Source of the DNA: Porphyra umbilicalis
Taxonomy: Eukaryota > Rhodophyta > Bangiophyceae > Bangiales > Bangiaceae
NCBI GenBank assembly: GCA_002049455.2
Contig: KV918806.1
Coordinates: 1-64,000 of the forward strand
Direction of reading: 5' to 3'
DNA length: 64,000 bases
Numbering within the stretch: the stretch's first letter is position 1; the number at the start of each line of letters is the position of its first letter. The translations under genes and the position numbers were made by a program. Positions 22,090 through 55,565 of this stretch are shown here, piece after piece. The notes below the pieces were generated by a model, which did not search any database, was not told the DNA's origin, and saw nothing but the letters and a program-made list of their open reading frames with translations.

Positions 22090-22640
22090 GCTGGGCACCA
22101 CCGCGTCGTGTCTGTCGGTCGCCATCGGCTGAGGCCGACGAGCACAAGACACACCCCTGTCGTGCCCCTCGGCGGACGCCGGCCGGCCGGCGTCGACGAC
22201 GATCGGGCACGCCCGCGTCGTGCCCCGCGGTTGACCACCGCGTCGTCAACCGCGTCGTCCCTGTCGGTCGCCATCGGCTGTGGCCGACGGAGACGGCCGC
22301 GTCGTGCGCCTCGGTCGACCACCGGGTCGTCCCCGTCGGTCGCCATCGGCTGTGGCCGACGGGGACGGCCGCGTCGTGCCCTTCAGTGGACTGCCACGTC
22401 GTCCACGTCGGTCGCCATCGACTGTGGCCGACGGGCACGCCCGCGTCGTGCCCCTCGGTCGACCACCACGTCGTCCCCGTCGGTCGCCATAGGCTGTGGC
22501 GGACGAGCACACGCACCCGCGTCGTGCCCCTCGGTGGAAGCCGGCCTGCGTCTACGAAGACCGGGCACGCCCGCGTCGTGCCCCTCGGTCGACCACCACG
22601 TCGTCCCCGTCGGCCTACATTGACAGGAGCCGGCGATCGT
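22090..22640. repeat. 72-bp tandem array
   Basis: CGTCGTGCCCCTCGGTCGAC-type units start at 22300, 22372 and 22444, exactly 72 bp apart, with degenerate units on both sides. The period equals 24 codons, so either strand can carry a 24-residue repeat in one long frame (plus 21331-22623, minus 22975-21986). I do not consider either frame proven coding. Confidence 0.75.
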
Positions 22641-22925
22641 CTCACACGACCGCGTCGTGCAAGACGCCTCGCTCCGTCTCTTGAGTCCGTGACGTACTTT
22701 CGCGCATTCTGCAAAGAGGTCGGTTGCGCTAGGGAAGTCGTCGGGGACCGTGTTTCTTGAGAAAGGCCAGGCGTCGGTTGCTGCTCCTGTCCCCTTGGTC
22801 GCTCAAGGGCCCCGCCCGTTGACGCTGCGGCTTGTGGGGGGAGTCGGCTCAGCGAAGAGGCGCTCAACGTCCACCCGCGCGTTCTCGTCACTCTCGGCGG
22901 CTGTGGCCGCTTGCAGCGGGGCGCC

Positions 22926-23960
22926 ATGAACAGCATCGAGGTGCGCTTTGTCGCACTGTCTATGCTACACAACAACGTTCCTCGTGCAACGATCTACAAG
23001 GACATTGGCGTCCGCAAGTCGACGCTGAAGCGCTGGGCGGCCTACTATCGGGATCACGGCTCGCCATGGCGCAATCCCGTCTACCGCAGCATATTTGCTA
23101 GCAGCTGCTGGTTTGACGATCAACTGATGTCTGCGTTGGTGACGCTCGTTCGCGAGAACCCCCGGGCGCTGCTTCGGGAGCACGCGGCCACGCTCAAGGC
23201 CATGCTGGACCATCCCAGCGGGGTGTTTGCGGGTTTCCGATGTTCTCAGAGCACCGTCGACCTGCACATGCGTCAACTTGGCTTTACCCGCAAGGTCGTG
23301 CTTCGACTCTTTGGCGAGTCGTTGGAGCCTGTTCGTATGGCGCACGCCGTTGCGCGACGGCGCATCCCGCGTCGGTGCATCGTCCGCGTCGACGAGACGC
23401 CCACGGATGGTGGAGACGTTTTTCGGCGGTATGGCCGCGCACTTGCACACGAGCGCACCCGTGAGCGTGGTCGGGATCCGAGAACGGTCCCCCGTACGAG
23501 CACAATCATGGCGGTGTCGGCGGACGGCCGCATTGTCGGCTTCCAGTCCGTCATAGTGCGCGGCGGTGGGCTGAAAGCGGCCAACTGGCGTCTCTTCCTG
23601 CAGCTGCTTATCTCGAAGCTGGACGTCTACGTTCCCGGTCATCCATCGCACCTGCAGGCGTCCAACCGTGTTATCATGTTTTAAAATGCCCCTATCCACA
23701 CAGTGGGTGGCGACACGTTCCTTGCGAACAATGGTGTGCCGTTTTTGCGGTTGCCGGCGTACAGCCCCGACTTGTAGCACATTGAAGGTGTTTTCAATGA
23801 TCTCAATGTCATTATTCGAAATCTCGTGTACGTTCAACCTGATCTTGTGGACAATCCACACCTTTTGCAAGCCCGTGCGGCGAGTTTCATCACTCGACGT
23901 CAGGTAATTGGACAATTCGACCGGGTGGACTGGGTCATTGATGCGGTGCTGTCCCAATAA
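22926..23960 (+). pseudogene. Tc1/mariner (IS630-type) DDE transposase, inactivated
   Basis: A cut-and-paste transposase that would excise and insert its element at TA sites. The frame from ATG 22926 has an N-terminal helix-turn-helix (PRATIYKDIGVRKSTLKRW), the first catalytic Asp in IVRVDET, and the region around the second Asp (VIMF-stop-NAPIH). There TAA at 23682 sits exactly where the catalytic Asp is expected. The frame continues through PAYSPDL-stop-HIEGVF, with TAG at 23775 at the residue usually Asn or Gln, and the third acidic residue as Glu. It ends at TAA 23958. Both nonsense codons keep the same frame, and each alone would abolish function. I did not find the terminal inverted repeats. 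Confidence 0.75.
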
Positions 23961-26900: not shown

Positions 26901-28800
26901 CGGCGGGATGGCTCTGTCGCTCTCCTCACCTCACCAATGGGGGAAGGGAAGACCGCTACTGTGATAGTGGGGAGGCGACAATGGCGAAGAGCGCGTGCTC
27001 CTCGAGCAAGCCAATTCTCTGCGGCGGCGGGCCGGGTCTCGGGCACGACGCAGAAGTATGGAACTACTCCACGCAGCTTGCGCCGTATTATTTAATATCT
27101 CTACCTCCCACCTTTCTCGATCCTGTCGCCGTCGCGGCCTTTACCACGCCATTGCGGCCGCTACCACTCTTTCGCGGTCCTTACCATCATCTCTGAATCC
27201 CCTTCACCTGAGTCGCCGCCGCCAACCAAGGGGACACATGACGATGTGCCATTGTCACGCAGAGAGCGCCGCGTCGGAACCACCCCCAATCGCCATGTTG
27301 CTGGTCACCATCAAAGTGGCTCGAGGCGGTCGGGCTGTTGTTGAGGAACGGAGGTAGCAGGTCTCACCGATATCGACACGACACTAGCGAGAGCGAAAAA
27401 TCAGGTCAGTGATGGGACAACCACAGGGTCGATGAGACAAGAAATGGCCAACCATCTCAAATGTCGCGTCCGTCACGGGCATGCATGAGTGGTACGAAGC
27501 AGTGCTCCAAATCGTACAGTGTATTGGATGGTCTCAACAGCAGTGTCGAAGGCAACCGCCGTCAACCAGCGCGAAGGAAGCAGCAAGTCGAGGGATAACG
27601 TGGTGGGAGCGAGTGACGGTCAAGCGAGTAACGGCGGGACCGGCCCGGGCGACGACGACGAGGGACAGCCAGGGAGCATCATGCCCTTTCAGTGCTGAAA
27701 TGAGGGGCCTGATTCTGACCAATCAAATGGCAGCGTGACCGGCTCGGAGAACCGCCAGGTTCTTGCATGCCGTCCTGGAGGCGAATCTCCTGCGTCGGCT
27801 GGCAGAAAAATTGCGAGAGATGCACTCGGAGCGACGTTTCGGTTGAGTGTTTCGACGATGCCACTTCGAACACATGGACATGTCGTGGGATGCGCCGCCT
27901 GTGCTCGATGGGAACGCACCAAATCCACCATCTCGGAATGCGACGTGTAAGTTTGACACTTGGAATGATATGACTTCACGACCTCAGACTCCGCTCCGCA
28001 CTTGGAGGCCCACATGGGGGCCGGCATGTTCTGGGGCTCGCCAGACTGGGCTGAAGGGAGACAAGCACGACGTTGTGGTGTATTCTTTAATGGGGCAGCG
28101 TAACGCTGCTTGCCGTGTGAAGCAAGTGCACGATACGCGCTATTGACAATCAAGTTGTTTCGTTTGTCGCTCCCTTCATGAATGACGCAAGAGCCAGTTT
28201 CCAAGGTCCACATTCGTGACATGCTGCGGTATCGTGTTGAAATTCAGAGTGTGTACCCATATCACCCGAGCTATGGGAATGGGCAGGGCGGCTTTTTCGT
28301 GCCCCTTTCCCTTTTGAAACATGTCGACGGTCTTGTTACGATCGTTTGGACGTTCCGAGGGTTTGATCAATCGTTTTTGCGTTCCGTTGATTGATGCAGA
28401 GACCATTGCTCACATTTACATAACGATCGGGGACGTATTTAGAGTAATTGTTTTTACATGCGATGAAACATTTTTGTCGAACGTTGGAAGATTTTGAGTC
28501 GAGGAGAACAGTCGAACCATTTCCATCATGCACAGGTGATCGCTGTCTTCGTCTCTTTTTGTGGCGTGCTGCCACAGTCCCCTATGAGCGTTGATGGGCG
28601 TCCTTATGTCGGCGACAGTCTCACTCGGTCCTCCTCTCCCATGCAGGATTGTACCCTCGGCCCCCCTCGTCGACGACTATAACTCGGCACGCTCGTTGCG
28701 GAGGCGGCGATTCCTATCTCAACGACACTGCCTTTGTCCCACACGGCCCACGGGCGAGTTCACGGACTCCTTCACTCCTCTCCCCCTCTGTGCTGTTGGG
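23961..28800. other. Long interval with no supportable gene
   Basis: It is less GC-rich than the rest. The best minus frame is 25093-24560 (177 codons, containing LLFPPEFHHVIKNKLGRIDL), with further weak frames at 26493-26053 and 28222-27689. None shows a domain I recognise. No RNA gene, MITE ends or satellite was seen. Confidence 0.35.
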
Positions 28801-29470
28801 ACGCCCCCCTCGTCCACATGTCTCTGCTGCTGTTCGCGCGCCACACATCCACGCGTTTCTGCCGCCGTTGGGCGCGTCTCTTCCTCCAGAACATATTCCT
28901 CATACGTGCGTCTCCTGCCCCCATCTGTGTTGCGGGTGGGCGCATCTCCTCCCACCGTCATTGCCACACATGTGCGCCAGTCCTCCGATCTTCTGCGCCG
29001 CCGTTGGGCGCGTCTTTTCCCCTCGTCTGTGTGTCTGGTACTCGCGTCTGCTTCCCCCGTCTGTGCTGCGGGTTGGCGCGTCTCCTCCAGTCGTCTTTGA
29101 TGCGGGTAGGCGCCTCTCCTTTAACCGTCTGTGCCGCCGTTGGGCGCGTCTCTTCCCCCCGTCTGTATTTTTGGTACGCGCGTCTCCTCCCCCCGTCTGT
29201 GCTGCGGGTTGGCGCGTCTCCTCCCGTCGTCTTTGTTTCGGGTAGGCGCCTCTCCTCCAACCGTCTGCGCCGCCGTTGGGCGCGTCTCTTCCCCCCGTCT
29301 GTGTTTCTAGTATGCGCATCTCCTCCCTCCGTCTGTGCTGCGGGTTGGCGCGTCTCCTCCAGTCGTCTTTGATGCGGGTAGGCGCCTCTCCTTCAACCGT
29401 CTGCGCCGCCGTTGGGCGCGTCTCTTCCCCCCGTATGTGTGTCCGGTCGGCGCGTCTCCTATCCTCGTTT
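28800..29470. repeat. 136-bp satellite with 34-bp sub-units
   Basis: The word TGGGCGCGTC(T) recurs at 28869, 29005, 29141, 29277 and 29413, exactly 136 bp apart. Each 136-bp unit consists of four diverged 34-bp monomers sharing GGCGCGTCTC, which is a higher-order repeat. Neither period suits a protein-coding repeat in one frame (136 is not divisible by three). Confidence 0.9.
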
Positions 29471-29812
29471 GTACTCTGGTGGGCGTCTCTTATCGAACTG
29501 TGTCTGCTTGCACGGTCGAGGCCGATGCCGTTGACACGGCACCGTGTATTTGTCGGCGGTCATGTGGGGGGGCAGATAGGAAAGAGTCAAGGTTAACGGA
29601 CGCCGCTGTTCGGTCGCAGTTGTCGTCGAGTATTGTCCAGAAAACGGGAAATAGCATGGCATGCGACATCAGAACAGCGTATGCAATGTTTGAAAAAAGC
29701 ATACATCCCCATGAGGCAAGCTACAGGCAACAGCACAGCATAGTAAATTGTCAGCGCACAACAACAGAATGAAGAGCGGGCGGAGCGCACCGGGCACATC
29801 TATCACAGACCA

Positions 29813-30775
29813 TCACGGGGTACAAGCGGGGCTGCAAGTGTGTCGCGCAAAAGCCGACGCCGTGTCAAACAGCCTCTCGCATCGGCGGCACTCAAACAGC
29901 ACGTTGGCTCCTGGCGGCACGACGACGGTAGTGCCGCCGCTGACCTCATCGGCGGGCCCACTACGCCCGCTCAATTGCGTGCGGAAAGCGACGCTCCACC
30001 TGGTCTCTTCTTCATCCGCAGCTGCGACGTGCCGCGACCCGCTGGCCGCTCCGTCCTCCCGACGCCGCTTGCTACTGCTCGAAGGGGCGACAACAGCCGG
30101 CGTTCTACGGGAACGATCGACGGGTCGGCTTCGGCCGTCGTGCTGGCGCCCTGCGGAAGCACGAGCAAGACACGGCTGGCCAGCGCTCGCACCAGGTGGA
30201 GAGGCACGACGACCATCGTCTGCTGCCTTCGTGGCAAAACGAGAGCTGGGCGCCTGCTGGGCGTCGCCTTCGTCCGTCTCGCCGTCCGCTCCGTCCTGAT
30301 GCGGCGCCGACAAGTAGCTGTCGTTCGCCGACTCCTCTACGTTTGCGGCTTCGGCCTTGGCCGCTGCCAGCAGACTAGCAAAGTGCTTGTTTTTGTCGCC
30401 CGTCCGACAAACCTCGTCCAGCGCCGCCCGCAGACGCGGCACCAGAGGGGCGTTCTCGTAAATCCGTCCGGCGCTTCGCAAGCGCTGGACCGCCCGACGA
30501 CGACGATGGCCGCTCACGTGCGAGAAGAGGCGTTTGGCAGTGTCTTTGTGCAGCGCGCACAGAGTGCAGGCCCAGGGTTGGGTGGCAGAGGCGCTTGTAA
30601 GAACCGCCGCAGCTGCCTCCAGACGGCGATGCTCCTTTTTACAGATATACTCAGCGCAGCTCGCCGGCCCCGTGAGCGTCATTGCACACAGACGACACTC
30701 AGTAAATCTCGGGATGCTCGGAATGGAAGGCGGGGAGGGTCCAGGAGGGGGAGGGGGGGGGTGGGAAGCAGCCAT
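29813..30775 (-). CDS. C2H2 zinc-finger protein
   Basis: An intact 320-codon frame from ATG 30775 to TGA 29813. After a Pro-rich N-terminus there is a Cys-rich segment (CRLCAMTLTGPASC), then a classical C2H2 finger (CTLCALHKDTAKRLFSHVSGH: Cys-x2-Cys-x12-His-x3-His), an Ala/Glu-rich and Arg/Ser-rich linker with a basic nuclear-localisation-like patch (SSKRRRED), and a C-terminal finger-like motif (FECRRCERLFDTASAFARH). A DNA- or RNA-binding nuclear protein is likely, but the target is unknown. No frameshift or internal stop is seen, which makes it one of the few intact host-like genes here. A transposon-encoded accessory protein is an alternative. Confidence 0.6.
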   Translation of the reverse strand: MAASHPPPPPPGPSPPSIPSIPRFTECRLCAMTLTGPASCAEYICKKEHRRLEAAAAVLTSASATQPWACTLCALHKDTAKRLFSHVSGHRRRRAVQRLRSAGRIYENAPLVPRLRAALDEVCRTGDKNKHFASLLAAAKAEAANVEESANDSYLSAPHQDGADGETDEGDAQQAPSSRFATKAADDGRRASPPGASAGQPCLARASAGRQHDGRSRPVDRSRRTPAVVAPSSSSKRRREDGAASGSRHVAAADEEETRWSVAFRTQLSGRSGPADEVSGGTTVVVPPGANVLFECRRCERLFDTASAFARHTCSPACTP

Positions 30776-31444
30776 GGTAAGGCGGTGCGCGCAGTGGTGG
30801 GAGATAGGGTGCGGTTAGAGGAGCGGCCAAACGCGGTACCCGGTACGCGCAGATGACCACGATCTCGACGAAGGTTGGCGGTGCGTCGAGGATGCAGCAG
30901 CAGAGTGCAAGGGCCAGATGGGGAGAGTCAGAGCAGATGTGCTGCTGGGCCAGGTCGCTAGCAACACGGCAACACGGCGCCAACACTGGGATTGACCATT
31001 CAGCTTAAAACGGGACACGAAAATGACTGTTGGACCCTTTTTTTCCAATTTCAACGCGATAGACTTAGAGGGCGACAGCCAATAAAAACCGCAAGAACAG
31101 TGCATTTCGTTGGAATGTTCGAATGCAATAGCATGCAATTATTAAATGCAGGAGTACATGCATCCCAACGCGATCATGCGGCATGCGAGCAAGGCGATCG
31201 ACGGGGTCCTCGGCTGAAGCACGGCAGGCCTGGGCCAATCGACGATGCTCAGCAAGGCGCCATTGCGGGTCGCAAATTCGTGCGCGTCACACTGGTCGCT
31301 CGCACGACTCCCTCGGGGCACACTGCTGGATCTTGTTTGTCGTCGCCGCATGGCACGCTTGGTCGCAGCGAGCCCGGGCACCTCTCTGTAACCCGACATC
31401 CTCCCCGCTTGGACCCAGCCTCATCCCCCCTTTGATCTGGCTCC

Positions 31445-33137
31445 ATGTCGTCGGCTCGGCCGGACCGCTTGCCTGGGGTATCTCTATCACGGCTTGCACG
31501 CGATGACGCCTCGTCTTCGCACATTGGTGGCGGCCAGCGCCGGCAACAAAAAGTAATCGACGGCGGGCCTGCATCGAAACGGACGCGTTGTGACCGTACT
31601 CGGGCCGTGCACGGCGGTCAACTTGTCACCATCTCCCCGCCTTCACTCTCACAGTGCCCCCGAACAGCGTCTTTCGAGAGCCTCCCAAGTGGGGTTCGCC
31701 AATTGGTGCTGGACGTGTTGCCCGTCTGCGACCGCCTGGCGATGGATGACGTGTCCAAGGGCTGGCGCGAGGCGTGCACGACCAACACCCTGCACACAGC
31801 CATTGGCTGGGCCGTTTTCGGAGATGACGGGACGTCAGACGAGCGCCGCCTGTTTCACTGGCGTGCCTCAAAGTTTTCGAAAACAAGGGGTCCTGGGAGC
31901 GTGGAGGAAGGGAGAGAGCTGCTGCCGTCCGCGCTACCACTGGCCGCACGGGCTGAGGTGAAGACGCAAGGACGGTTCATCCTCCTCGTGCTGCGCGCCG
32001 TTGCGACTGTGAGCCGCCTGCTGGACGGGCTTGCCGGTGGTACGACGCCTACGCTCGACCTCCAACGGTGCTCGGAGCACGTCGTGGCTACTTCTTCTTC
32101 GCGTGTTTTTCCGTCACCAGCCCGTGTGCATGATCGGTCACCGCGCGACGTGTCCGCTAATGTAGTGTCTTGTGTGGCGGTATTGGGAAAAGGTGAATAT
32201 GGGAGAGTAGGAATCGAACCTGTGACCTCCAAGATAGTAGTTTTGCGCGCTAAACCACTAGGCCACAGGCATTTCATCCATGATCTCAAGCCAAGTTGGG
32301 GGTTCCAAATCCACTCGTATTACGAATACCCACCCCGGGTAAGCCTGCTCCTCCACGACCTTGTGCAGTTCAAGTACCATCCCAGCGGTTGCCGCAACCA
32401 CTACACTTGGGTGTGGGGCAATCAGCTGAGCGCCGATGTGGTGGCGGACGGCAGTGTGCAGGTTCGTTTTGACGCGGGGTCGGTGCTACGCATGGCTATT
32501 TTTGGCGCTCGAGGAGGTCGCGGATGCAGTTCAAGATATGGTCGGTCGCTCGCCGAGCAAGGTGACATTCACCATGCCCGCGAACGAGGCGGCCCGTGTG
32601 GCTCGCTGGGCGGCCATTTCTTTAGTCCTCGTCAAGGTTCGCGTGCGGGTACGGCGCTTGCTCTTCTTGCAGGAGCGGGTGCGCGCGCATGCGACGGGCA
32701 GTGTCCGTCCTCACAAGGCGCCTGTGCCTATTGTACGTCACCACGTGCATCATTGGGTTCGCGCCGCCGTGGCGCTTCGGTCTGGTTTAGTGGCCCAGTT
32801 TGTCGGTGGAATGTATGCCGTGGACGAGAGTCGGGCGGCCGACTTTTTGGCATTCACTGTCGCGGTCAACGACCGGGTAGCGGCTGCATGGCCGACGTTG
32901 ACGCAGCCCAGGCGCTGCATGCACTGGGCGCCCGTCGAGCGGCACATCATCTGGTTTGCGGTGGAAGCGTTTTCATCTGACGCACGGGGCGGTGGTACAA
33001 TGGATGACGTGGCTGCACACGCAGCGTGTTTACGTGTCCGGCAGCTGTGCGTCACGTGGGGGTGGCGTCGTCGCAGCGCATTGTCGAGTCCACCATGTAT
33101 GCCTCCCTTTGACTCTTGTGCGCAGTATCACCCGTGA
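31445..33137 (+). pseudogene. F-box protein gene with tRNA-like insertion and frameshift
   Basis: F-box proteins recruit substrates to SCF ubiquitin ligases through Skp1. From ATG 31445 an F-box is readable at residues about 77-115 (ESLPSGVRQLVLDVLPVCDR, then LAMDDVSKGWREA). The frame stays open for 511 codons, but after about 32490 the protein-like sequence continues in another frame (LALEEVADAVQDMVG onward) to TGA at 33137. A one-base change in the T-run near 32500 would explain the switch. A tRNA-like element at 32195-32272 lies inside the frame without adding a stop. It is either a recent pseudogene or a gene with an unrecognised intron. The substrate-binding part shows no WD or LRR repeats. 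Confidence 0.5.
32195..32272 (-). repeat. Degenerate tRNA-like sequence (SINE-like) with Pol III boxes
   Basis: On the minus strand it has box A (TGGCCTAGTGGTT), box B (GGTTCGATTCC), a 3' acceptor-like TCTCCCA, and TTTT a few bases further. The acceptor strand does not pair with the 5' side and the T-stem has mismatches, so it is not a functional tRNA. A tRNA-derived SINE or tRNA pseudogene inserted in the F-box gene fits best. Confidence 0.6.
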
Positions 33138-33646
33138 CGCCGACGTAAATCGCGCATGACTTTGTTTGATTTGCACCCTGTCGCTGTCCCATGCATGTGG
33201 CCAGCAAGCCGCCACACCGCTCCCCCTGCCCCACACCGTCCATTACAACCGCAGCCGGCCGGCACCGCTAGCCGACCTGCCTTGCCGAGCGCCATCTCCG
33301 CGCGTGGGCAGCTGCACTCGGGTAGTCCCTGCTCCGCCCGCCCTGGTCCGCCCAGCTTGGGCCGCCCGTACTGCCCCCCGCCGCCGCCAACCTCCGCCAG
33401 AGCAAAGGTACGAAGCGCACGTTTGGGGGCCTCGTGAATCATCCTTGTAAAGCGTCTTCTTGCATGCCCGAAATGAGAACGACAAAAAAAAAACCTGCAC
33501 AAAGTGGAGAGCCGACTGATGACTTGCGCCAAAGATGCCATAAGACACCAGGCGTCGTACATTCCGGCACACGCTCCTGGGTCTCCCACGCTCTGTAAAG
33601 GAGCCCCTCGACACTCAACCAGGGCATCTGAATAATGGTTTACGAA

Positions 33647-34431
33647 TCACTCTTGCCAGCCGGTGACCTCGTATCCATAGTAAAAAAAAAGCTCTTCCCC
33701 GGGCACAAGCTCTCTCGCTGCAAACAAGCCAACCCGAATGTAACCGCAAACACTCAACAGCTTCGGAACGAGGTTCGCCCGCGCCCGACTATGGTTCAAT
33801 TACCGCATGCGACTGCCGACGCGAGTGGCGTCGAGTACGACGTCTCGCGTCAAGGTGTACAAGTAGCTGACACCCACCGCGTCGTACAACTGCCCTATTG
33901 CATGCGCCTCATCGCGGGGCACCAGCTCGCCGACGTTCTCCCCCACAAAGTCGCCGGTCCCCGTCGGTTCCGCAGCAAACACTCCAAAGCCGTGCGTATC
34001 AGACCTGCCCAACATAAGCCGAGCGCGCAAGCCAAGCTGAACCTGCACGTTTCGGCAGCGCCTCGTACCACATCCGCCATCGGAAGCAGCCGATGGGGGC
34101 AAGTGCGCGCTACACATCCCACAAGCGTCCAAGTCGCACTCTCGGTCGACCGCGAAGCACGGGCAGTCATCCGTAGCGCAGCGCGAGGGCGCCACGCACG
34201 AGCACCCGACACGACGGGAGCAGAGGCGGGACCCACGCGCCGATGCCGGCCCCGATTGCGATGCAGAGAAGGCCGAGAGAGGTCCGGCCCAGGAGCCGCC
34301 AGCAGTTGTCCGCCCCGCGTTGTCGACAAAATGTCGTCCACCGACCGTAGAAACCAAAGAACCAGACGATGGACTGGAGCCGGTGGCCGCATCAGGTACT
34401 GCCGTTCTCACCCACCGCACCCGGGCGCACC
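33647..34431 (-). pseudogene. E(z)-like histone methyltransferase, 3' part (CXC and SET domains)
   Basis: Enhancer-of-zeste proteins are the catalytic subunit of Polycomb repressive complex 2 and methylate histone H3 Lys27. This part holds the second half of the CXC domain (CSCVAPSRCATDDCPC, then DRECDLDACGMC) and a SET domain: the GFGVFAAEP region, VGENVGELV, LYTLTRDVVLDATR, then NHS, and a C-terminal GEELFFYYGYE. The only visible lesion in SET is TAA at 33802-33800, immediately before LNHS, where family members have Phe or Tyr. The frame then continues correctly to TGA at 33649-33647. About 70 codons between the copia junction and CSCV do not resemble E(z) and may be an intron. A copia element separates this part from the 5' part at 40362-41817. 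Confidence 0.75.
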
Positions 34432-34830
34432 TGTGAAGTGAGCGGTAGTTGGGTGGATGCGTTGCTTCACTCCAGAGCGGTCTGAGGCGCGAGGCCAGCA
34501 GGCTCTTAAACCCTTCGTGTGCCTCTCTCGCCACGTTCTGCCGGCGCGCTTCCCCGCCAGCGCAGTGCTCCCTCCTTTGGAGGGAACATGCTCTCACCAC
34601 CCCACAAATCGCGACGCCCCTCGATGACCCCACGAGAATCTCATCGAGCTCAGTTCCAAAAGAAGCTACCCTCAATATACAAGTACAAGTGATTACATCA
34701 CACACATACAGCAATGCATGATAATGGCACAGCCAAACAAGCCGATGACCGCAGAAGTACTCCCGGAATTAGCCAGGCAGTCCGCGGTAACTCCAATTTA
34801 CCTGCGCGGGCTTGGGGGGCTGCCTCAACA
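34432..34830 (-). repeat. 3' LTR of copia 1
   Basis: 399 bp, same orientation as 39963-40361. On the minus strand it begins TGTTGAGGCAGCC and ends TTCACA. Confidence 0.92.
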
Positions 34831-34969
34831 CTCCTCCAGCGCCCCACAGTCCGCGCCATGGACGCTCTGTCACAGCTACAGTGCGAGATCATCCGCCAAC
34901 ATCCGCGATCGTGAAAACGGTCAAGTCCATCTCATCGACTTGGCCGAAATCGGCTCGACTCGCTGGGAG

Positions 34970-35350
34970 CAGTAGGCCTACAGCTTCTAGCGAGTCGAGC
35001 CGACTTCGGCCAAGTAAAATCGTCCTCCGACAAAATCGGCAAAAATCACCATCGACGTGAAGCAGACGTCGAGGGGAGTACAGCGCACCCGGGTGCGTCT
35101 CGAACGGAGACGATCCGGCGTATCGGCGGCCCGTCAAAGTCTGCTCGATGAGAGCAGTAGGCCTTCTGCTCCCGGCCATAATCGGGGCCCACTACTTCCG
35201 GCCAAAATCGACCAAATTCGACTTACACCAGAATCGATTCGGGCCCGTTGGGAGCGGTAGGCCTACTACTTCCAGCCAAAATCGACCGAAATCGACTTGC
35301 ACCAAAATCGACTCGTGCCCGTCGGGAGCAGTAGGCCTACTGCTCCCGGT
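34970..35350. repeat. Palindromic repeats in the 3' untranslated part of copia 1
   Basis: AGGCCT-centred palindromes occur near 34974, 35159, 35259 and 35333. The last is a perfect 26-bp palindrome at 35323-35348, and the last two are 74 bp apart. Between them AAAATCGAC-type words recur. The block lies between the RNase H stop and the 3' LTR. Confidence 0.75.
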
Positions 35351-35625
35351 TAAAACCGCCCAAAATCGACTTCGGCCAAGTCGAGTCGGGCGATCGCCGC
35401 GAACCCGCGGCTGCGCCGCTGGTCGCCCCCAGTTGCGCCACAGCGCCCCAGGACGGTCCCAACCGGCCGTCCCCCCAAGGCAACAGCGCCCCATGGCCGG
35501 CCCCAAACAAGTGGATGGTAGCGCAACCGTCCACGACTGGCACCGGTCCGCGGCAAGGTCGACGGAGGTCGCTGCCACGAATCCGGGGCCGCGCCACTGG
35601 ACGCCTCCAGTGGCGCCATGGTGCC

Positions 35626-37128
35626 TCAGCACTTCCCCAACAGGGGGTCGCCAGGCCCGGCGCCCCGCTCAGCCGCGCCCAGGTCTTTACCAACCCCCAT
35701 AACAGCCCGGAAAGCCGTGAACGCCGACGACGGCAGCGGCTTGCTGAGCCCATCCGCCGGCATGTCGGCGCTCGGGAGGAAGTAAGAGGACACATCCCCG
35801 CGCGCCTGAGCGTCGCGAACCATGTGGTAGGCGACGTCGACATGCTTGGTCCGCCCCGTCGCCTCGAAGCTGTTGACCAGCGCCAGGCAGGACTGGTTGT
35901 CCTCCCCCATCGCCACGGCTCCACCGTCGACGGCCAGAGCCGACAGCAGCTTGCGTAGCCACAGCGCCTCCTTGGTCGCCATTGCGTCGGCCACGTACTC
36001 GGCCTCGGCCGTAGAGGTAGCCACGGTCGACTGGCGCTTACTTGCCCACGCAATCGCCCCGCCATTGCAGGTGAAGTCGAAGCAGGTTTTTGACCGACGA
36101 CCGTCGATGTCGCCGGCCCAGCCGGCGTCGACAAACCCTTGCAGCGGCTCGCTGCCGCTGTAGACCACACCAAGGCGAGTCGTCCCGCGCAGGTAGCGCA
36201 GAACCCTTTTGGCCGCGCGCATGTGGTCCCCCTCAGGGCAGGACATGAAGCGCGACAGCACCTTCACGGCAAAGGCGATGGCTGGCCTCGTCGTGGCAGA
36301 CAGGTAGAGGAGGGAGCCGACCAAGTCGGCGTCATGGTTGCCCTCTGGCAGCAGGCCCTCCCCTGTCTTGGTCAGCTTGACCCCCGACGACATCGGCGTC
36401 TTGTTTGGCGTCGCCTTGTCCATCCCGAACGCCTCCAGCAGCGTCGCGGTGTGCCCCGGGTTGCTCAACGTCAGAGTCTTTGCCGCCCGGTTGCTCATGA
36501 CCTTCATGCTGTTCAAGTCCTTGGCCTCCCCCATGTCGCGCACCTCAAACTTGGCAGACACGGAGCGCTTGACGGCGTCGACCCCAGCCAGCTTCTCGCC
36601 TGCCACGATAAGGTCGTCGACGTACAAGAGGATAAAGATGCACCCGTGCACGGGGTGATGCCACTCATAGAGGCACGGGTCCACCTTGGACCGGACCGCC
36701 CCCATCTCTTTGAGCTCTTTGTCGAGCTTGATGCCCCACAGCCGCCCCGCCTGCTTTGTCCCGTATAGCGCCAGGTTAAGCCGACACATCTCGTCCAGCC
36801 CCTCCGGTTCGACACCGTCGAAGAGTTTGATGTACATCTTCTTGAACATCTTGGCGTTGAGGAAGGCTGTCTTGACGTCGCCATGGTGAATCTCCCAGCC
36901 CATGGCTGCCGACACAGCGAAGAGAGCACGTGTCGTGACCGCTTTGGCTACCGGAGCCCACGTCTCGTCAAAGTCTCGTCCGGGCACCTGCTTGAACCCT
37001 TGGGCCACGAGTCGAGCCTTGTAGCGCGTGAACTTGCCCTCTGCGTCGTGCTTGATGTCGAACACGAATCGCGTCTTTATGGCCTTGTGATCCTTTGTTG
37101 TTCCCCGTGGTCTTGGACCAGGTGCCAA
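35626..37128 (-). pseudogene. Copia 1 reverse transcriptase-RNase H
   Basis: A 500-codon open frame with the copia RT signature: TRFVFDIKHDAEGKFTRYKA, ARLVAQGFKQVPGRDFDETW, the HHGDVKTAFLN block, YGTKQAGRLW and the catalytic YVDDLIVAG. It is followed by RNase H with GFVDAGWAGD, STAEAEYVA and KHVDVAYHMVRD. The RT-RH part itself has no internal stop, but it lies in a different frame from the upstream gag-integrase frame, so a frameshift near 37115 separates it from the polyprotein. Confidence 0.9.
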
Positions 37129-37177
37129 GGTGCTTGTGTGCCGCCACCTCCTTCTTAATGGCCTGATTCCACAGCGG

Positions 37178-39238
37178 CTAGTCAGGACGAGCGCGCGCCT
37201 CCTTCTCGTTTGCAGGCGGCTTGTGCAAGTCCCAGCCCGCCTCAGCCGCGGAAGCGTTACCGCTTGCCAGGTACGCCTTGGGTTCCTTCTCCCACCATGT
37301 TACCTTGGCAGCTGGCTTGCGCTTCGAGCGACGAGGCCATGGTGTGACGCTGTCACTAGCCGCAGGTGCTTGAGCAGCGGCGGGAGTCGAGCCACCGACG
37401 CCGTCCTCGTCCTCCTCCTGGCTATCGCCAGAAAAGGAAGGAGGACGGACTTCGTTGTCGCTGTCAGAGGTCTCGTCGGGGGAGTACTCGTCCTCTCGCC
37501 CGCCTTTTGCGCCGATCGTCTCCATTGCCCTTTCTGTGGCGCCATCCTTGTCGCCGTCATATTCCGCAGTCAGCCGACGACCAGCGCTTGACCCGACTGC
37601 TGACGTCTTGACCTTCGCCGGGCTCTCCTCTATAAGCACGTCCCGACGCTCGAAGACTTGGTTTGTCTCGTCCTCGAGGATGCGGCAGGACCTGCCACCG
37701 ACAATGTAGCCGACAAAGCGGCCGACGTCGGTCCTCGGCTTCAGCTTGCGCTGCTGCTTTTTCGGCTTGAACGCCCACGCCCGACTCCCCCAATCGCGGA
37801 ATCCCGCGACGTTGAGGCGTCGACCCGTCAGCGCCTCGAGCGGCGTCACATCGAGCCCCGCCTGGGGAGATCGGTCGAGCACATGGACGACGGGGTACAA
37901 AGCCTCGGCCAACAACTCTTCCTCCGCACCGGCGTCAAGTAGGGCAGCCCGCACGCGCTCCATCAGCGTGCGGTTCACCCGCTACGCCTTGCCGTTCTGC
38001 TGCGCCTAGTACGGCGCCGTCATCTCAGACGTGATGCCCTTATCCTCGTATGATGCCTTAAGATCGTTTGTGACGTACTCCTTTGCACCGTCGTGACGAA
38101 CACGCTTCACTTTCACGCCCGTCAGAGTCTCAAGCTGCTTGATGCGCGTCTTGAGCACCTCCGGCGCCATCCCGTTTGTTTTAATAGGCGTAGCCGTGAT
38201 GAACCCCGTCGAGTCCTCCAGCGCCGTCATAAAGTAGAGGGAGCAATTCAGCGACTCAGTGAGTGGGCCACCAATGTCGGTGTGCACAAGTTCGCACTTG
38301 GTTGTCGCTGTCGACGAGCGGGGGCTGGGCGACTGAACCATCTTGCCGTCCTCACACGGCACACACACCGTGCCAATGACGCTCTTGGCGTCTGCCACTG
38401 ACGACGGCATGCCGTCGACCATTGTGGCCGCCCGCTTGAGGTTCTCCAACCACAAGTAATTGAACCTACGATGCCACAGCTCCGTCTCCCCAGCGATGCG
38501 CGTCGATACCGCGCACGCCGAAGCCTTGACCGGCTTGACCGTGAGCGTGTACTGCTCCAGGTCGTTGACCTTGCCGACCACGGTCGCCTTGTCGAGCGCT
38601 CCGCTCCAATGGACAGCATGCCCGTCGCTGAGGATGTAAGAGGCGTTTCCGACGAGCACTACCGCACCACGATTGCGGTCAACCACTCGAACCGAGTGCA
38701 GGTTGCTGGTCAGGTCCGGTACGAGCATGGCCTCCCCGAGCACCATGCGCGTCTTGGTTTTGCCCTTGCCAACGTTCATGGAGACGTGGCCGTGCTCCTT
38801 GATGGGTACCTTTTCGCCGTTGGCCAAGGTGACCTCGGCCCTGCTTCCCGCCGTCCGGACTGTGAAGCCCATATCCCCGGCGGCCATGTGGTTGGTTGCG
38901 CCAGAGTCGAGCACCCAAGTTGATGAACACAGGGAGCTTCCGCGAGCCTTTCTGCTCCCGGTATTAGCAGTAGAAGCAGTATAGGCCAGAGGGGCACCCG
39001 CGTGTGGCCCGCCGCCGTTGCCGCCATCACGGCCACCACCGCCGGGCTTGCGCTTGCTCTTGGCCTCGTCCGCCTTCTTCTTTTGGGAGTCGCGCTGCAT
39101 GTTTCCCTTCTTGTTGCAGTAGCAGCACACGACGGACTTCTTGTCAAACGGCTTCTTAGGCGCCGCTGCCGCAAAGGCTTGTGATTTGACACTGCCAGAA
39201 GGCTTGGAAGTGCCGACAGAAATGCTCCGCTGCTCGAC
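37178..39238 (-). pseudogene. Copia 1 zinc knuckle, protease and integrase region
   Basis: One frame with stop codons at 38006 (TAG), shortly after it (TAG near 37984) and at 37178 (TAG). It shows a zinc knuckle (CCYCNKKGNMQRDS) in which the metal-binding His and last Cys are replaced by Asn and Ser. The protease motif is VLDSGATNHM. The integrase His-Cys domain has its second His lost (HRRFNYLW). Catalytic Asp residues are in VHTDIGGP and VRHDGAKEY. The expected catalytic Glu before RVNRT is a TAG codon. Integration by this copy's own protein is therefore impossible. Confidence 0.85.
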
Positions 39239-39900
39239 TTAAAGCAGCTTAGCTGTCACGTCCGACATGACGAGCTTAGTGTCCTTGTTCTCCAGCACCG
39301 TCCTGAGCATCCCGTACTCTGCCGGGAGCCCTGCCAGGACACGCAGCGCATGCGTGTTGTCGTTCATGGGTCTGCGAGCATGACGAGCTCGTCCCGGAAC
39401 ATCTTGGCGCGCGACGTGAACTTGATGATGTTCTCGTCGCCGCCCTTCTTGAGACTGCTCAGCTCGTCCATGAGTCGCAGCAGCCGCGCGTTGTCTCGCG
39501 CCTCGAACATGACCTTGAGCGCGTCCCACGCCTCTTTGGCCGTGTCCACCGACGTGACCGTGTTGAGGTGCACGGGCTTGACCGACATCTGAATGGTCGC
39601 CACCGCTGCCTCGTTCATGGCGTCCCACGCGTAGACCACCGGGTCGCACTTCTTGTCGTCGGACGAAGATGCCGGTCGGTCCGTCACGACCGCCGCCCAG
39701 AGCTTCTCGTTCTTGAGCTGCGCACGATGGTACGCTGCCCACACCTTGTAGTAGTCGTCCAGCTGCGCAGAACCGCGGGCCGCCGTAGCGGCCGTGGTCT
39801 GCCATGTTGACGACCTCGGCGCCGAACAGCGCCGCGCTAACGACGTAGGGAGCAGAACACGCCCGCCTGACGCCGGAACACACCGCGATCCCAGCGACAT
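39239..39900 (-). pseudogene. Copia 1 gag
   Basis: Begins at ATG 39900, just inside the 5' LTR and PBS. The UBN2-like gag core is readable (YYKVWAAYHRAQLKNEKLW, then DTAKEAWDALKVMFEARDN and DENIIKFTSRAKMFRDELV) up to a stop at 39364. It continues in another frame (DNTHALRVLAGLPAEYGML) to TAA at 39239, after which the zinc-knuckle frame follows. Thus there is one frameshift and one nonsense codon. Confidence 0.8.
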
Positions 39901-39947
39901 CGTCTCACCAGCAACCGCAGGGAAGACGACGGTTACCACCAGCGACA

Positions 39948-39962
39948 GCTGGGCCCATAACC
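39948..39962 (-). other. Primer-binding site of copia 1 (half-tRNA-iMet type)
   Basis: Minus-strand GGTTATGGGCCCAGC directly follows the 5' LTR. It is the exact complement of the anticodon stem-loop of eukaryotic initiator tRNA-Met (GCTGGGCCCATAACC, anticodon CAT). This is the known half-tRNA priming mode of Ty5 and Drosophila copia. Confidence 0.85.
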
Positions 39963-40361
39963 TGTGAATTGAGTGGTAGTTGGGTGGATGCGTTGCTTCA
40001 CTCCAGAGCGGTCTGAGGCGCGAGGCCAGCAGGCTCTTAAACCCTCCGTGTGCCTCTCTTGCCACGTTCTGCCGGCGCGCCCCCCCGCCAGCGCAGTGCT
40101 CCCTCCTTTGGAGGGAACATGCTCTCACCACCCCACAAATCGCGACGCCCCTCGATGACCCCACAAGAATCTCCCCGAGCTCAGCTTTAAACGGAGCTGC
40201 CCTCAATATACAAGTACAAGTGATTACATCACACACATACAGCAATGCATGATAATGGCACAGTCAAACAAGCCGATGACCGCATAAGTACTCCCGATAT
40301 TAGCCAGGCAGTCCGCGGTAACTCCAACGTACCTGCGCGGGCTTGCGGGGCTGCCTCAACA
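39963..40361 (-). repeat. 5' LTR of copia 1
   Basis: 399 bp. Begins on the minus strand at TGTTGAGGCAGCC (40361) and ends TTCACA, directly followed by the primer-binding site. Confidence 0.93.
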
Positions 40362-41817
40362 GCACCCACAATACTTCTCACAGGGGATGTTCACCCGTGC
40401 GCACCTGCAGACCTCAGGACTGCAACGGCCGACATGAAAGCACGGCCGATAGTCCGCAGCACGCCCATCCTCGTCGTTCATGCCGCCAGGGGAGAGGGAG
40501 AGTGTGGTGCCCTGCTGTCGCGGACGTTGCGAAGAAACAGCTTGCGACAAGAACCTCGGCGAACCCGTAGCCCGACGAGGGGAGTCATTCTCGGGCGCGT
40601 CCTAAAGTGGAGGCGTCACATGACGGCGACGCTCCTCAGGCAGCCCCACTGCTGCCATATAGGCCATCACTGTACGACACGTCTGCCCAGGTACGAAGGC
40701 AGCCAGTCGACAGCTGTCGTGCTGCTTCACTATGCCGCTGCCGGCTCGAAGAAGACCAACTTAGTCGGCCGTCCACCCGTCGTCCTCCTCTGGGGTTGCA
40801 CGCGGATGACGGCGGGGATCGAATCCGCAGTCCTGACACGCGTTGGCGGCGACACTGATCGCCCCGTGGGTTGCCGCAGCCAGCAGCGCGAGACGCACTG
40901 ACGACTGCGAAGGCAAAGAGACACCGCCACACACTTAAGCGCTGACCACCGCGCCATGCCCGGCCGCAGGGGGGTTTCCCTCGTGCCCCGCGACGAGATG
41001 GTCCACGCCCGACCTCCTCTGGTGCGCCTCGAGGAAGCCAAGCACATTGAGGTCGGGTGAAAGATGAACAGGTACAAAGCCGGGGGTAGTTGGTTCTGGC
41101 TCTCTGCATGCGGGACCGTGAAGACGGCACGCGTAGCGTAGAAAAAAGGCGTCACAGCAGTCGGGAGAACGTGTCCCGCTCAAGTACCGTCGTGGCCATT
41201 GGGGTTGGCATTGTGGGCACCGCCATAGGCGTACCGGTGGAGACATGTCGAGAAACCGCTTGAAGAAGAGACCCGCCGAGGGACGCTTTCGCTGCCACAA
41301 CACCAGCCCCAGGCGACCGCAACGACGAGCGAATTTCTCGCAGTACGGACACGTCGGCACGAAGACGGAGCCCCTCTTTACACGCAGCTAATGCGGCACA
41401 GGCTTGGCGAACTGCCCAGGCCCGGTTCGAGGGGCCAAGACCGGCAGCCGTGGCGTCGTCCGCGGCACAGCTGCACGCACGTGCGCGATGCACTGGGAGG
41501 GCGCCTAGCACCGGCAGACATGTGGACAGCGGCCGACTGGTCCAGGAAGCGTTGGAGTCTGGACGCGTCCGTGACAATGGTCCGGGATCCGAGGAAGGCG
41601 CACCGCTGCCAAGAACAACAGCGAGACTCACACCACCCGTGAGTTCTGCAAGACACTTAAGGCGGGCTTTTGTCGATGCCTGCTCCACTCTCGCCGTCTC
41701 GTTGTCACGGTCACGTCTCTCAATTAGAGCAATCGTGCGCCTGGCGTTGGCTGCATTGCAGCCGACGAGGGTGGCCAAAGAGTCCACAACCGCCGCCCCA
41801 TCGCCAACCGTCTTCAC
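40362..41817 (-). pseudogene. E(z)-like histone methyltransferase, 5' part (Cys-rich, SANT and CXC start)
   Basis: Upstream continuation of the SET-domain gene. At about 41100-41160 a conserved E(z) segment is visible (CDAFFLRYACRLHG, compared with the family Cys-Arg-Arg-Cys...Cys-Arg-Leu-His). It sits in a different frame from the open frame that reaches it from 41817, so a frameshift lies near 41155. At about 40655-40780 lies a SANT-like domain (HDSCRLAAFVPGQTC, then RTVMAYM). Within it TAA at 40763-40761 replaces the Glu expected four residues after the conserved Trp. At 40550-40362 the CXC domain begins (YRPCFHVGRC, then EVCRCARVNIPCEKYCGC) and is cut by the copia insertion. The N-terminal 200 residues resemble nothing known to me, and the true gene start is not located. 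Confidence 0.65.
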
Positions 41818-42729
41818 GACGGACCAGATGCCACGTCAAGTTGCAGCACTTCGCATCCTGCAAGAGAGGTGGAAGTAGTCCGAGGGACGGCCATCTTCTC
41901 CGTTTTCAGACGCTTCGCTACCGTCGCTGTCATCTCGCCCAGCCCAACGGTCGTGCAGCGTTGCCCTAGCCGCGTCTGCACAGCTTCCAACACGGTCCCC
42001 CATGTGGGGCACAAACCTCTGTGATGGCACATCCTCGACTCGCCGCCACTATTGACGCACAGGTACGTAAAACGTGAACGTCGGAGGCTGCTCCACCGCA
42101 GGCAGGCGCGTGAGACGCACGGCGCCGACTAGAAGTGACAATGGACCAGAGCGCTCAAGCCGCCCGCTGTCCACGGGCCAGTCGGTCCCACGGGAGCATG
42201 ACCTTGCCGCTGTTGACGATTGCGGAACCACGCTACGGTTGCAGCCCGACAAAGAAGACGGACTCGCATCACGCTCCGTTCGCGGCTTCTTTGGCGGAAT
42301 GAGACAGGACGCCCATGTACTGTCGCTATCTTCTTTGTGAAGCTCCGAGGTTGATGACAATGGCAGCTCCGGATGCTCACGGTCCCGAAGCCGCCCCCCA
42401 GCCTCCCCCCTCCCATTCCGCCGCCGGACCCCGCATATGCGGCCGAGGGTATCTTCATTGCCAACGAGGTTAGTTGCACTGTCCAGGGCCGCCCGAGTCC
42501 AGCACTACGCCACTTGGGGAGTACAATCAATGTGCTCAATGGCAACGACGTCGAGCGTTGCTAACACAGGAGTAATGTCGATACCAAAGACCGAACGCCG
42601 TGCCAGCGCCATTTGTCGCGCAACCGCTGCCCGGTTCACGCTGACAGCCGTCTGGACAGCTGCACGGCGGCACCGAAGAGCGTAGCGCCTCGTGCGCTCG
42701 AGCACGAAGACGACGATCCGACCGGCTCC

Positions 42730-43035
42730 AGTTTGACAGGGTGCCCCCGCGCCCGACACGGTATCTCCGCCTGCGTCCGACGGGGCAACACCACCAGCAC
42801 CCGACGCGGCACAACCGCCCGCCCCCAATGGCGCCGCGCCACCCGCAACCGACACAGAACCGCCCCCGGCGCCCGACAGGGCATCACCACCCGCACCCGA
42901 CGCGGCAGCACCACAAGCACCCGACGCGGCACCACCGCCCGCCCCCAATGGCGCCGCACCACCCGCAACCAACACAGCACCGCCCCCCGTGCCCGACAGC
43001 GCAACAGCACCCGCACCCGAGGCGGCACCACGCCC
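42730..43035. repeat. 120-bp repeat of Gly/Ala-rich coding type
   Basis: The word CCCCCAATGGCGCCGC recurs 120 bp apart (42827 and 42947 at AATG). Each unit contains four 30-bp sub-units of the type GCACCCGACGCGGCACCACC. In the minus frame 43146-42505 this reads as a 40-residue Gly/Ala repeat built of four decapeptides. Both periods are multiples of three, so coding is possible but unproven. Confidence 0.7.
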
Positions 43036-43986
43036 GTGGCCGGTCGGCCCGTCATCGGGCCACTCAAGCAGGTGATCCACTGTGACACATTTCATTGCCG
43101 CGTCTTGCAGCGATGGGTGACAGGTCGCGACGGGAAATGGGCGCATGACGGGGCGTCTGCCTCAGTGGAATCTGTCGGTCAGGCAGAAGGAGCGTTGGAC
43201 GACACCCGCAGTGGCTCACGAGACGAATTGTTTCCAATGCAAATTATGCTGTATTTCACTCCGAGAGAGCAGCGACATTGGCCAATCACACGTCGTCGTG
43301 TGGAAAAGACATGCAGTTGGGCGGCCTCAGACGCATTCCGAGTTGCTGGATGGACACAAACTGAACCTGGATCCACCTTGGCGCCCCTTCCCTCATCCGT
43401 CTCGACCCGTCTCGTCTCGCAACTCGAGTGCGCGCCACAACGTCCAGGCGCGCTCTGCCCCCACCGCCTTCTCCGGTACGTGATTATCGCCGCAGGCACG
43501 GACGTCGCATAAACCTGGACTGTGCTCGGTACCGGCACACCTTCTCCGCCGAACGAGGCGCCTTGCGCGCCCACCCCTGCCCGTGCCGTCAGCGTGGCGG
43601 TGGCGTCGGGGAAGCGCGCGGGCGGTACCGTTCACGACGACGGCGGCACGGCAACAGTCGTAGCCACCTGTGCGGACGACGGGCGGCAGCGTCTGCTGCT
43701 GTTGCGCGCGTGTGCGCGCGCCACGCGAGGATGCGGATGGGGTAGGCTCTCCTGGGGGGCAAGAGCAGCGCGACCGCTGTCGTAGCTGGCGGACAACGAG
43801 GCAACACAGCTGTGGTGGCTGCAAAGGTTGCAGATGACGCTACCCTGCCGGCTGTGCGCCGTGTGGCGGCGGTTGAATGGCGAGGCACTGCTGATAAGGG
43901 ATGGGTAGTGGACGTTGTCTGAGGAGAGGTGCCTGGTAAAACGTTGGTGATGCGGCGGCTGAGGGCGACGCGGAAGCGGACACGGC

Positions 43987-44014
43987 GGGGGGGGGGGGGG
44001 GGGGGGGGGGGGGG
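43987..44014 (+). repeat. 28-base G homopolymer
   Basis: An uninterrupted run of 28 Gs, capable of forming G-quadruplexes and a likely site of length polymorphism or assembly error. Confidence 0.9.
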
Positions 44015-44188
44015 AGGCTGACGGAGCCGTCGGGCAAAGCGACTGTGACGGAACGGCATGACACAACACACTCTTACCGACCCCTCGGGATAGCTATCAA
44101 CTACCGCTCGTCATGCCTTCCCTGGTGCCTCTTCCTCATCCCCAGAGTCTCCGTCGTCGTCCTTCCCAGACTCCTCGTCCTCTCAGTC

Positions 44189-45510
44189 TTACTTGTCGTC
44201 GACGTTATTGACGCCGCCCGACCTGGAGCCACCGCGACCACCGACGGGTGGACGGCCCGTCCCCCCCGCCGCCTGGGCTCGGCGGCGAGATTTGAAGCCA
44301 GCAAGCTCGGCGTCCCACGTTGACTCACCCCCCAGTGACACACCGAGTACCCGCGAGGCCGCCACGTTCTCGTCGACGTAAGTCTTCACCCAGACGGACA
44401 CGAGGGACAGCAGGCTGCTATTGGAGACATTGACGCGGCGCGACATGAGTTTCTCAGCCACGTCCGCCAGGGACACCACGCCGCAGGTGATATTCATCCC
44501 GATGGGGAAGTTGTCGTTGGCCGCATCCACAAACTGCTGCTCGACGCGGGGAAAGGCCGCCGCCTGCTCCCGCAGTGCGCACCGAATCACCTTGCGTGCT
44601 AGCTATTCCGCCGTCAGCTCGCTGATAGCAGGACACTCGAAGACAACAGCCTCATCGAACTGAGCCCTCTCCCCCACTTCCCACGACAAATGGAGCGGAG
44701 CCGTCGCTGCAGCGACGGGAGCGCAACGGGAGCAGTCGGCCCTCCGTCCCCGACCCTCCCAAGGAGACTATCAAGAGGAGAAATAGCACGTGGCCCAACG
44801 CCCACCCCGACAGTTGACCCGGCACCGGTTTCCAGCAGGCGCTGGACGCTGTCGGCAGCGCGCATCGCATGGGCGCACATGAGGCCCGTGTGCTTGTGCT
44901 GCAAGTGGACGGCGGACCGCGTCGCAAGGTTCGATCCAGCAGCAACTCCAGACGCCCCCACCCCGTGCCCAGACTGCATTGACGTCGACAATAACGCGCC
45001 TCGGCTGCCCCGGCCCGCGGACCCACCAAGATCGTCGACACGACCGCGGACATCGCGACCCGCTGGTGACGGTGACGCCGACTGCTGTTGAATCTCGTCC
45101 ACGTCAATCGGCCGCCGGCTTGCACCTGCTGCGGCCGCCACACCACCCACACCACCCCGAACCGCACCCGAACCGGCGTCCGAGCCGTCACGACCCCGAC
45201 GAATGCGCCTGTCGTGTCCCCGTGCCCGCGACATCGCAGCGGCTCCCCCTGTTGCTGCGGCCACGGCCGCCCCTACCGCAGTCTCGTTGGGGTTGTCCAT
45301 GGCGCCGACAATCGCGTCAAAGTGCGAGCGGCTCTCCGCGCCGTTGGTCGCAGCCGCAATGCCGTTCGCCTCCATCGTCGGCGGTTCTGCCCACTCGCTT
45401 TTTCGGGTTACTTCTTGGTAACTTTGAGGCGAGACAGGCGCGAGCTGTGTCGCCATGAAGTTGCCAACGGGAGCTGTCAAGAGAGTCATACGGTGGATCC
45501 AAGGTGACAC
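44189..45510 (-). pseudogene. Hypothetical protein with frameshift and in-frame TAG
   Basis: A 299-codon frame from 45510 (possible start MATQLAPVSPQSYQEV) reads as Ala/Gly/Ser-rich protein, then a better ordered segment (HKHTGLMCAHAMRAADSVQRL). Near 44650 the protein-like sequence moves to another frame (FECPAISELTAE), passes a TAG at 44605-44603 and continues as LARKVIRCALREQAAAFPRV, with SSLLSLVSVWVKTYVDENV further on, until a TAA at 44189-44191. That TAA overlaps a GTAAGA and could instead be a splice donor. No family is recognised. It is on the same strand as, and upstream of, the E(z)-like gene. Confidence 0.35.
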
Positions 45511-45519
45511 TTAAGCAAA

Positions 45520-55551: not shown

Positions 55552-55565
55552 CTGGGCCCACAACC

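Follow-up and report, generated by a model that had tools for sequence, protein, structure and literature searches.

An E(z)-like gene split by a copia retrotransposon

The first 64,000 bp of contig KV918806.1 from the red alga Porphyra umbilicalis (assembly GCA_002049455.2; this whole stretch is hereafter called the window) carry on the minus strand a decayed gene resembling E(z), the catalytic subunit of Polycomb repressive complex 2 (PRC2), whose CXC region is split by a copia retrotransposon. An earlier reading of the letters, made without database searches (the sequence-only reading), had described this arrangement, and tblastn, a pair of long terminal repeats (LTRs) and a target site duplication all bear it out. 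With the relative L027 as query, tblastn placed the gene in three collinear pieces (43095-41146, 41141-40362 and 34429-33650). The gene begins at 43095, outside the extent first proposed, 33647..41817. In total, eight in-frame stops and one frameshift interrupt it; seven of the stops and the frameshift, which had been placed near 41155 and lies between 41146 and 41141, fall in the 5′ part. The two TAA codons already noticed are present at 40763, in the SANT-like region, and at 33802, directly before NHS in the SET domain; the residue lost at the former had been read as Glu and is Gln in L027. The remaining six stops lie at 42507, 42051, 41838, 41154, 40937 and 40604.

The copia LTRs align at 34429-34830 and 39960-40361 with 94.5% identity over 402 bp, and the minus-strand open reading frames (ORFs) of the element match RVT_2 (3.9e-51) and Pol_BBD above the family cut-offs and rve below. 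The GCACC duplication falls, as had been claimed, in the Cys-Gly-Cys codons of EKYCGC.

Profile searches and comparison with rival SET subfamilies, the two checks that the sequence-only reading had proposed for the identity of the gene, both came out in favour of E(z). The window piece 33803-34402 matches preSET_CXC above cut-off (2.8e-7). Scanned separately, the two SET parts flanking the stop score 14.4 and 21.5 bits, below the SET cut-off of 22.4, while the stretch read through the stop scores 49.4 bits. A search of the Protein Data Bank (PDB) with the window piece found EZH2 at 8e-25; outside that family the strongest match was EHMT1, at 2.6e-9. By these comparisons the predicted product is closest to E(z)/EZH2 and not to another SET subfamily.

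A large E(z)-like family is linked to a transposase and a second terminal gene

Searching the genome (83,822,817 bases in 665 contigs) with an E(z)-like query returned 135 pieces, which combine into 89 loci if small fragments are counted. An open frame of at least 900 amino acids with a stop-free matched part was found at 29 of them, C76 among these. A SET search of the same genome gave at least 85 hits, other SET families included. Twenty loci of 10 kb were read. One of them, C352, seems to hold a different type of SET gene; the other 19 are E(z)-like, a mixture of intact and broken genes, and several of their open frames reach 950-1290 amino acids. One such open frame, that of L025, matched EZH2 in PDB at 9e-35 over the SANT-side block, both CXC halves and SET (EHMT2, 1e-16), the SANT-side block being aligned at only 16.8 bits. 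preSET_CXC scored above cut-off in L025, L021 and L027, at cut-off (23.3) in L010 and below it in L013. Of five E(z)-like proteins scanned, one showed Ezh2_MCSS, below cut-off (0.0075), and a search of the genome with this family gave no match anywhere, its controls being silent too. Six stretches of viral contigs matched a pattern used to look for relatives, and none encoded one. Contig C665 of the genome carries phycobiliprotein genes; its allophycocyanin has 5tjf, a structure from Gracilaria, as best PDB match, a hint that disagrees with the high GC content, which suggests Bangiales.

Homology between the window and L027 extends past the E(z)-like gene in both directions. When a related copy, C116, was extended downstream, it showed a run of genes consisting of ORF-U, E(z), an F-box-like gene, a zinc-finger gene and a DDE transposase. 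DDE_3 scored above cut-off in all three right-frame transposases scanned (7.7e-11 for the C116 copy, 1.8e-15 and 3.1e-12), and the motif D..D-33-E is present in all seven transposases examined. The C116 transposase also matches the NCBIfam IS630 model (1.6e-20), at 73.8 bits, below the model cut-off of 100. These matches identify it as a predicted IS630/Tc1-type DDE transposase of the IS630-Tc1-mariner superfamily. Relatives of ORF-U matched no Pfam family above cut-off, and ORF-U gave a single match in PDB, at 0.089.

A transposase lies within 25 kb of 66 of the 89 E(z)-like loci and of 62 of the 85 SET hits, compared with about 7% expected per site, and either a transposase or ORF-U lies within that distance of 76 of the 85. 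Seen from the other side, the transposase query returned 112 rows genome-wide, and 61 of the 93 with at least 50% identity are near a SET hit (63 counting extra E(z) pieces). The 108 rows of the ORF-U query reduce to 88 loci once second pieces are dropped, and 63 of these are near a SET hit. The offset between SET and transposase recurs: about -5.7 kb on the same strand (C50, C179, C21, C115, C41), about +2.6 kb on the same strand (C313, C482, C5, C177) and about +9.2 kb on opposite strands (C57, C86, C113, C23, C33).

Paired inverted ends delimit elements of 19-41 kb

Homology between close copies often ran through everything fetched: L027 and L028 are 98.4% identical over 9.4 kb, C249 and C80 match through the whole 9.9 kb with no visible boundary, and some copies are 97-99.7% identical across nearly the entire fetched 10 kb. 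No useful long inverted repeats were found inside the 10-kb loci. The related copies C116, C498 and C458 cease matching at one shared point, where TA meets TGGCAGATCCCTAAAAAATGG. The inverted ends are about 21-25 bp long, read TGGCAGATCCCTAAAAAATGG or TGGCACTTCCCTAAAAAATGG, and adjoin TA; beyond these ~21-25 bases, left and right ends no longer agree closely.

Allowing up to 3 mismatches, the end pattern has 49 matches in the genome, against none for a reversed-pattern control. TA starts 47 of the 49 termini, a figure biased by the inclusion of TA in the search pattern; TA was found at all 19 ends read, and the flanks of these 19 matched no other fetched locus. Within 5 kb of the 49 termini, the gene that reads inward is the transposase at 16 and ORF-U at 14, both are found at none, and at no terminus does either gene read outward; 19 termini have neither within 5 kb. 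A SET hit within 40 kb lies inward at 23 of the 49 and outward at one. Three of the termini counted belong to a tandem array on C228, in which the transposase-side terminus occurs three times in direct order, 614 bp apart (99193, 99807 and 100421).

Seven inward-facing pairs of ends bracket both E(z) and a transposase, at distances of 19-41 kb. Four of these copies measure 21.7 kb (C116), 23.1 kb (C228), 27.2 kb (C310) and 19.0 kb (C178), and three that also span a VEFS hit measure 34.7 kb (C31), 36.8 kb (C59) and 40.9 kb (C47). Because the counts that bear on the existence of the element and on its gene content are independent of one another, we are highly confident that the E(z)-like gene is cargo of a large, diversified family of giant DNA transposons, as judged from sequence. 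With equally high confidence we predict their architecture to be an inward-reading transposase at one end, an inward-reading ORF-U at the other and the E(z)-like gene between.

Subfamilies differ in cargo: Su(z)12-like VEFS or zinc finger

A VEFS-Box search of the genome gave 26 hits, all above cut-off. A SET hit lies within 25 kb of 22 of them, and two more (C233 and C206) are beside E(z)-like pieces, making 24 of 26. VEFS lies inside paired ends in C59, C31 and C47, the match in C47 being a fragment (positions 14-87 of 137). L025:7173-7925 encodes a 251-amino-acid VEFS protein (VEFS-Box, 4e-10), which found no SUZ12 in PDB but one irrelevant match at 0.33. The larger VEFS protein of L058 (C184) matched SUZ12 chains only, nine of nine, weakly (best 0.007), and one of the nine chains is an EZH2-SUZ12 fusion. 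Visual inspection suggests a C2H2 finger upstream of VEFS in L057 and L058, which in the latter aligns with SUZ12 at only 0.4 bits; the L025 protein is too short to judge.

The two kinds of cargo nearly exclude each other. Among the 85 SET hits, 22 have a VEFS gene within 25 kb, 43 have a zinc finger and a single one, C113, has both, its zinc finger sitting at 21 kb; conversely, 44 of 58 zinc-finger loci are within 25 kb of a SET hit. The subfamily found in the window has zinc finger and F-box. From these associations, the cargo beside E(z) is very probably a Su(z)12-like VEFS gene in some subfamilies and a zinc-finger gene in others, with an F-box gene in some.

The VEFS loci on C478 and C6 are possible host Su(z)12 genes. 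A possible host E(z) candidate is C76, a low-scoring E(z)-like locus in these searches (54909-55883) with a 923-amino-acid open frame, a SET match that is cut and possibly an intron.

The E(z)-like protein is under constraint

From the 19 copies in hand, 15 with open frames of at least 300 amino acids were selected and aligned. All 15 keep the Asn-His of the SET core, YGY near the end of SET and the core cysteines of the second CXC half. In eight E(z) pairs with synonymous divergence (dS) of at least 0.18, the ratio of nonsynonymous to synonymous divergence (dN/dS; Nei-Gojobori, pairwise) was 0.15-0.37, dS being saturated in the most distant ones, and for the C-terminal 300 codons it was 0.14-0.33 in six pairs. 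These ratios indicate purifying selection on the predicted E(z)-like enzyme between diverged subfamilies.

Possible roles of an element-encoded Polycomb enzyme

On balance, we favour a reading in which this transposon family encodes an active PRC2-type methyltransferase that acts on the chromatin of the element itself. Its E(z)-like protein would be an active lysine methyltransferase and would join the Su(z)12-like protein of the element or of the host, together with host ESC and p55, in a PRC2-type complex. Such a complex would methylate histone H3, probably at K27, on the element itself, and the element rather than the host would then set its level of silencing. An active enzyme is favoured over a decoy because the catalytic residues are conserved, and the presence of a VEFS gene hints at a complex whose partner, too, comes from the element. 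A bolder version, which we put forward only tentatively, is a selfish Polycomb system: the transposon would encode both E(z) and Su(z)12 as two interacting subunits of a PRC2 and use them to place heritable H3K27 methylation on copies of itself. If true, this would be, to our knowledge, the first mobile element encoding a multi-subunit histone-modifying complex.

An alternative is an anti-silencing decoy: the E(z)-like protein of the element, and its Su(z)12-like one, would compete for the PRC2 partners of the host and weaken silencing of the element without needing catalysis. The VEFS protein and the SANT-side block could bind such partners, and precedents have been described: transposons of the Vandal families have anti-silencing proteins (PMC12730594), and a domesticated transposase is reported to antagonise Polycomb in Arabidopsis (PMC4671723). 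A pure decoy, however, would not need the SET residues kept in 15 open copies or the low dN/dS of the C-terminal codons, and we regard this explanation as unlikely.

A little less likely again is a role in targeting or offence, in which the methyltransferase would mark other loci, such as rival transposons or preferred insertion sites, and not the element itself. The C2H2 zinc-finger gene of many subfamilies, found near SET at most of its loci, could direct the enzyme, and in another red alga, Cyanidioschyzon, trimethylation of H3K27 (H3K27me3) is reported to sit on and cover repeats (PMC5405695).

Growth of a host gene family through segmental duplication, the transposase copies being neighbours or passengers, would account for copies 97-99.7% identical over nearly 10 kb, as duplicates or haplotypes would be. 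Simple segmental duplication is disfavoured by the seven copies that have paired inverted ends and TA in unrelated flanks; transposase and ORF-U moreover occupy opposite ends, and spacing and orientation recur within subfamilies. We therefore hold it to be very improbable. Finally, although the E(z)-like gene and the copia insertion are both real, a lone host E(z) pseudogene killed by copia is rejected, with hardly any probability left to it, by the dozens of E(z)-like loci, many with a long open frame, and by their linkage to transposon genes, and these same counts leave unsupported what the sequence-only reading had implied, the loss or duplication of a host PRC2 catalytic subunit, the gene being one of 89 loci and 76 of 85 SET hits lying near element genes.

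Several observations weigh against an active methyltransferase carried by a transposon family. Of the 112 transposase rows, 50 lack a SET hit within 25 kb (48 when extra E(z) pieces are taken into account). Among these are 18 of the 19 rows below 50% identity, which means that some relatives can do without E(z); these distant transposases may show the state before capture. Offset and strand do not correspond one-to-one with transposase identity class, the 70-73% class having two arrangements. No empty site was found among the flank matches of the 19 ends to fetched loci, and some of the near-identical copies may be uncollapsed haplotypes. Very close pairs give noisy dN/dS values, 0.13-0.59 for E(z) and 0.51-1.32 for the transposase. 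With regard to partners, the VEFS-Box search gave no hit on C46 or C116 for the subfamily of the window, and no ESC/EED-like WD40 gene was found beside E(z) among the 150 of 380 candidates that were scored, no search having been aimed at p55 by itself.

Relation to known elements and to Polycomb

Typical members of the IS630-Tc1-mariner superfamily are short and have one gene. The elements described here share with them a DDE_3 transposase, short inverted ends and TA at both ends, but are 19-41 kb long and hold several genes. In being giant and bearing accessory genes they resemble the giant EnSpm and KDZ elements described from algae, giant EnSpm elements with accessory genes being reported in red algae too, which belong to other superfamilies (PMC12477816). 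HarbingerS and MuDR transposons of Phytophthora are described as likewise carrying genes for SET histone methyltransferases (Kojima and Jurka 2014, cited in PMC12730594). As described there, those elements differ in transposase superfamily and in host, the transposase scanned here being DDE_3/IS630-like and not of the Harbinger type; the present element has an E(z)-type SET with CXC, paired-end copies of 19-41 kb and, in some copies, a second PRC2 subunit. Fungal DNA transposons of several lineages that carry TET/JBP are a further parallel, with a chromatin-modifying enzyme as a transposon gene, although as described these enzymes act on DNA methylation and not on histones (PMC12730594). Among the literature matches listed, there was no report of a transposon carrying E(z) or Su(z)12. 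With PRC2 itself (E(z), Su(z)12, ESC and p55) the present system shares E(z)-like and VEFS-Box proteins; it differs in being tied to a mobile element and in having no ESC-like gene beside E(z) among the 150 candidates considered.

Polycomb is usually regarded as a host defence against transposons. Here a transposon family itself bears Polycomb genes, in dozens of copies over diverged subfamilies, so that control of a host's silencing mark by a parasite becomes a question open to test. Since dozens of E(z)-like copies are tied to giant transposons, some with a second Polycomb part, our results suggest that a genomic parasite took over pieces of the cell's Polycomb system. Tallies of E(z) or Su(z)12 genes in genomes of this kind may thus be counting transposons, and a selfish Polycomb system, if true, would offer one possible way for Polycomb genes to have spread or been recruited.

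The copy in the window is a relic

Compared with the C116 copy by blastn, the window is 73-84% identical in blocks over 150 bp, and by this homology its predicted transposon copy spans at least 22.8-45.4 kb, with termini missing or unrecognisable: no terminus within 3 mismatches of the end pattern occurs in the window, and the left terminal stretch of C116 (L041) has no match there. One of the two pieces of ORF-U holds one TGA, one TAG and one TAA. The F-box-like gene of C116 matches F-box just above cut-off (1.1e-4), and the corresponding ORF of the window matches no Pfam family at 0.001; the zinc-finger gene of C116 is zf-met-like, below cut-off, and that of the window matches no Pfam family at 0.1. 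Because ORF-U, E(z), the F-box gene and the transposase are all broken, no ends are recognisable and a younger copia lies inside, we consider the window copy to be a dead relic, hit later by copia. The copia is thus nested in another, older mobile element, since the E(z)-like gene family is linked to transposase and ORF-U and has inverted ends and TA sites. The features of the predicted copy are listed in Table 1.

Table 1. Features of the predicted transposon copy and its copia insertion (window positions).
Feature	Positions	Strand	Basis
Decayed giant DNA transposon copy (predicted)	22775..45384	- (as E(z)-like gene)	Blockwise homology to C116 copy with paired ends
IS630/Tc1-type DDE transposase	22887..23957	+	86% identity to C116 copy; 1 TAG and 1 TAA
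C2H2-type zinc-finger gene	30146..30778	-	73% identity to C116 gene
F-box-like gene, in pieces	31643..33119	+	71-76% identity to C116 gene
E(z)-like gene, 3′ part: second CXC half and SET	33650..34429	-	tblastn; one TAA at 33802
Target site duplication GCACC, copy 1	34427..34431	.	tblastn-based gene mapping
copia LTR retrotransposon in CXC region	34432..40361	-	LTR pair, RVT_2, Pol_BBD, rve
Target site duplication GCACC, copy 2	40362..40366	.	tblastn-based gene mapping
E(z)-like gene, 5′ part: N-terminal region, Cys-rich motif, SANT-like region, first CXC half	40362..43095	-	tblastn
ORF-U, second terminal gene, broken	44114..45339	-	74-75% identity to C116 ORF-U, two pieces

At the transposase side, window positions 21736-22588 match tandem repeats beside the transposase of the C116 copy, while the longer homology to C116 stops at 22775. 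At the other side, directly upstream of the element homology, the window (45375-45758) shares an 86% repeat with L015 (oriented 1-384), which is likely another insertion that severed the left end of the element.

Elsewhere in the window, a second copia-type polyprotein is encoded on the minus strand at 57094-59262 (Retrotran_gag_2, Pol_BBD, rve). A long minus-strand open frame at 12026-15847 matches RVT_1 (1.4e-11) and is perhaps a non-LTR element, and 8361-9563, also on the minus strand, encodes a 2-oxoacid dehydrogenase acyltransferase with an E3-binding domain, part of a probable host gene.

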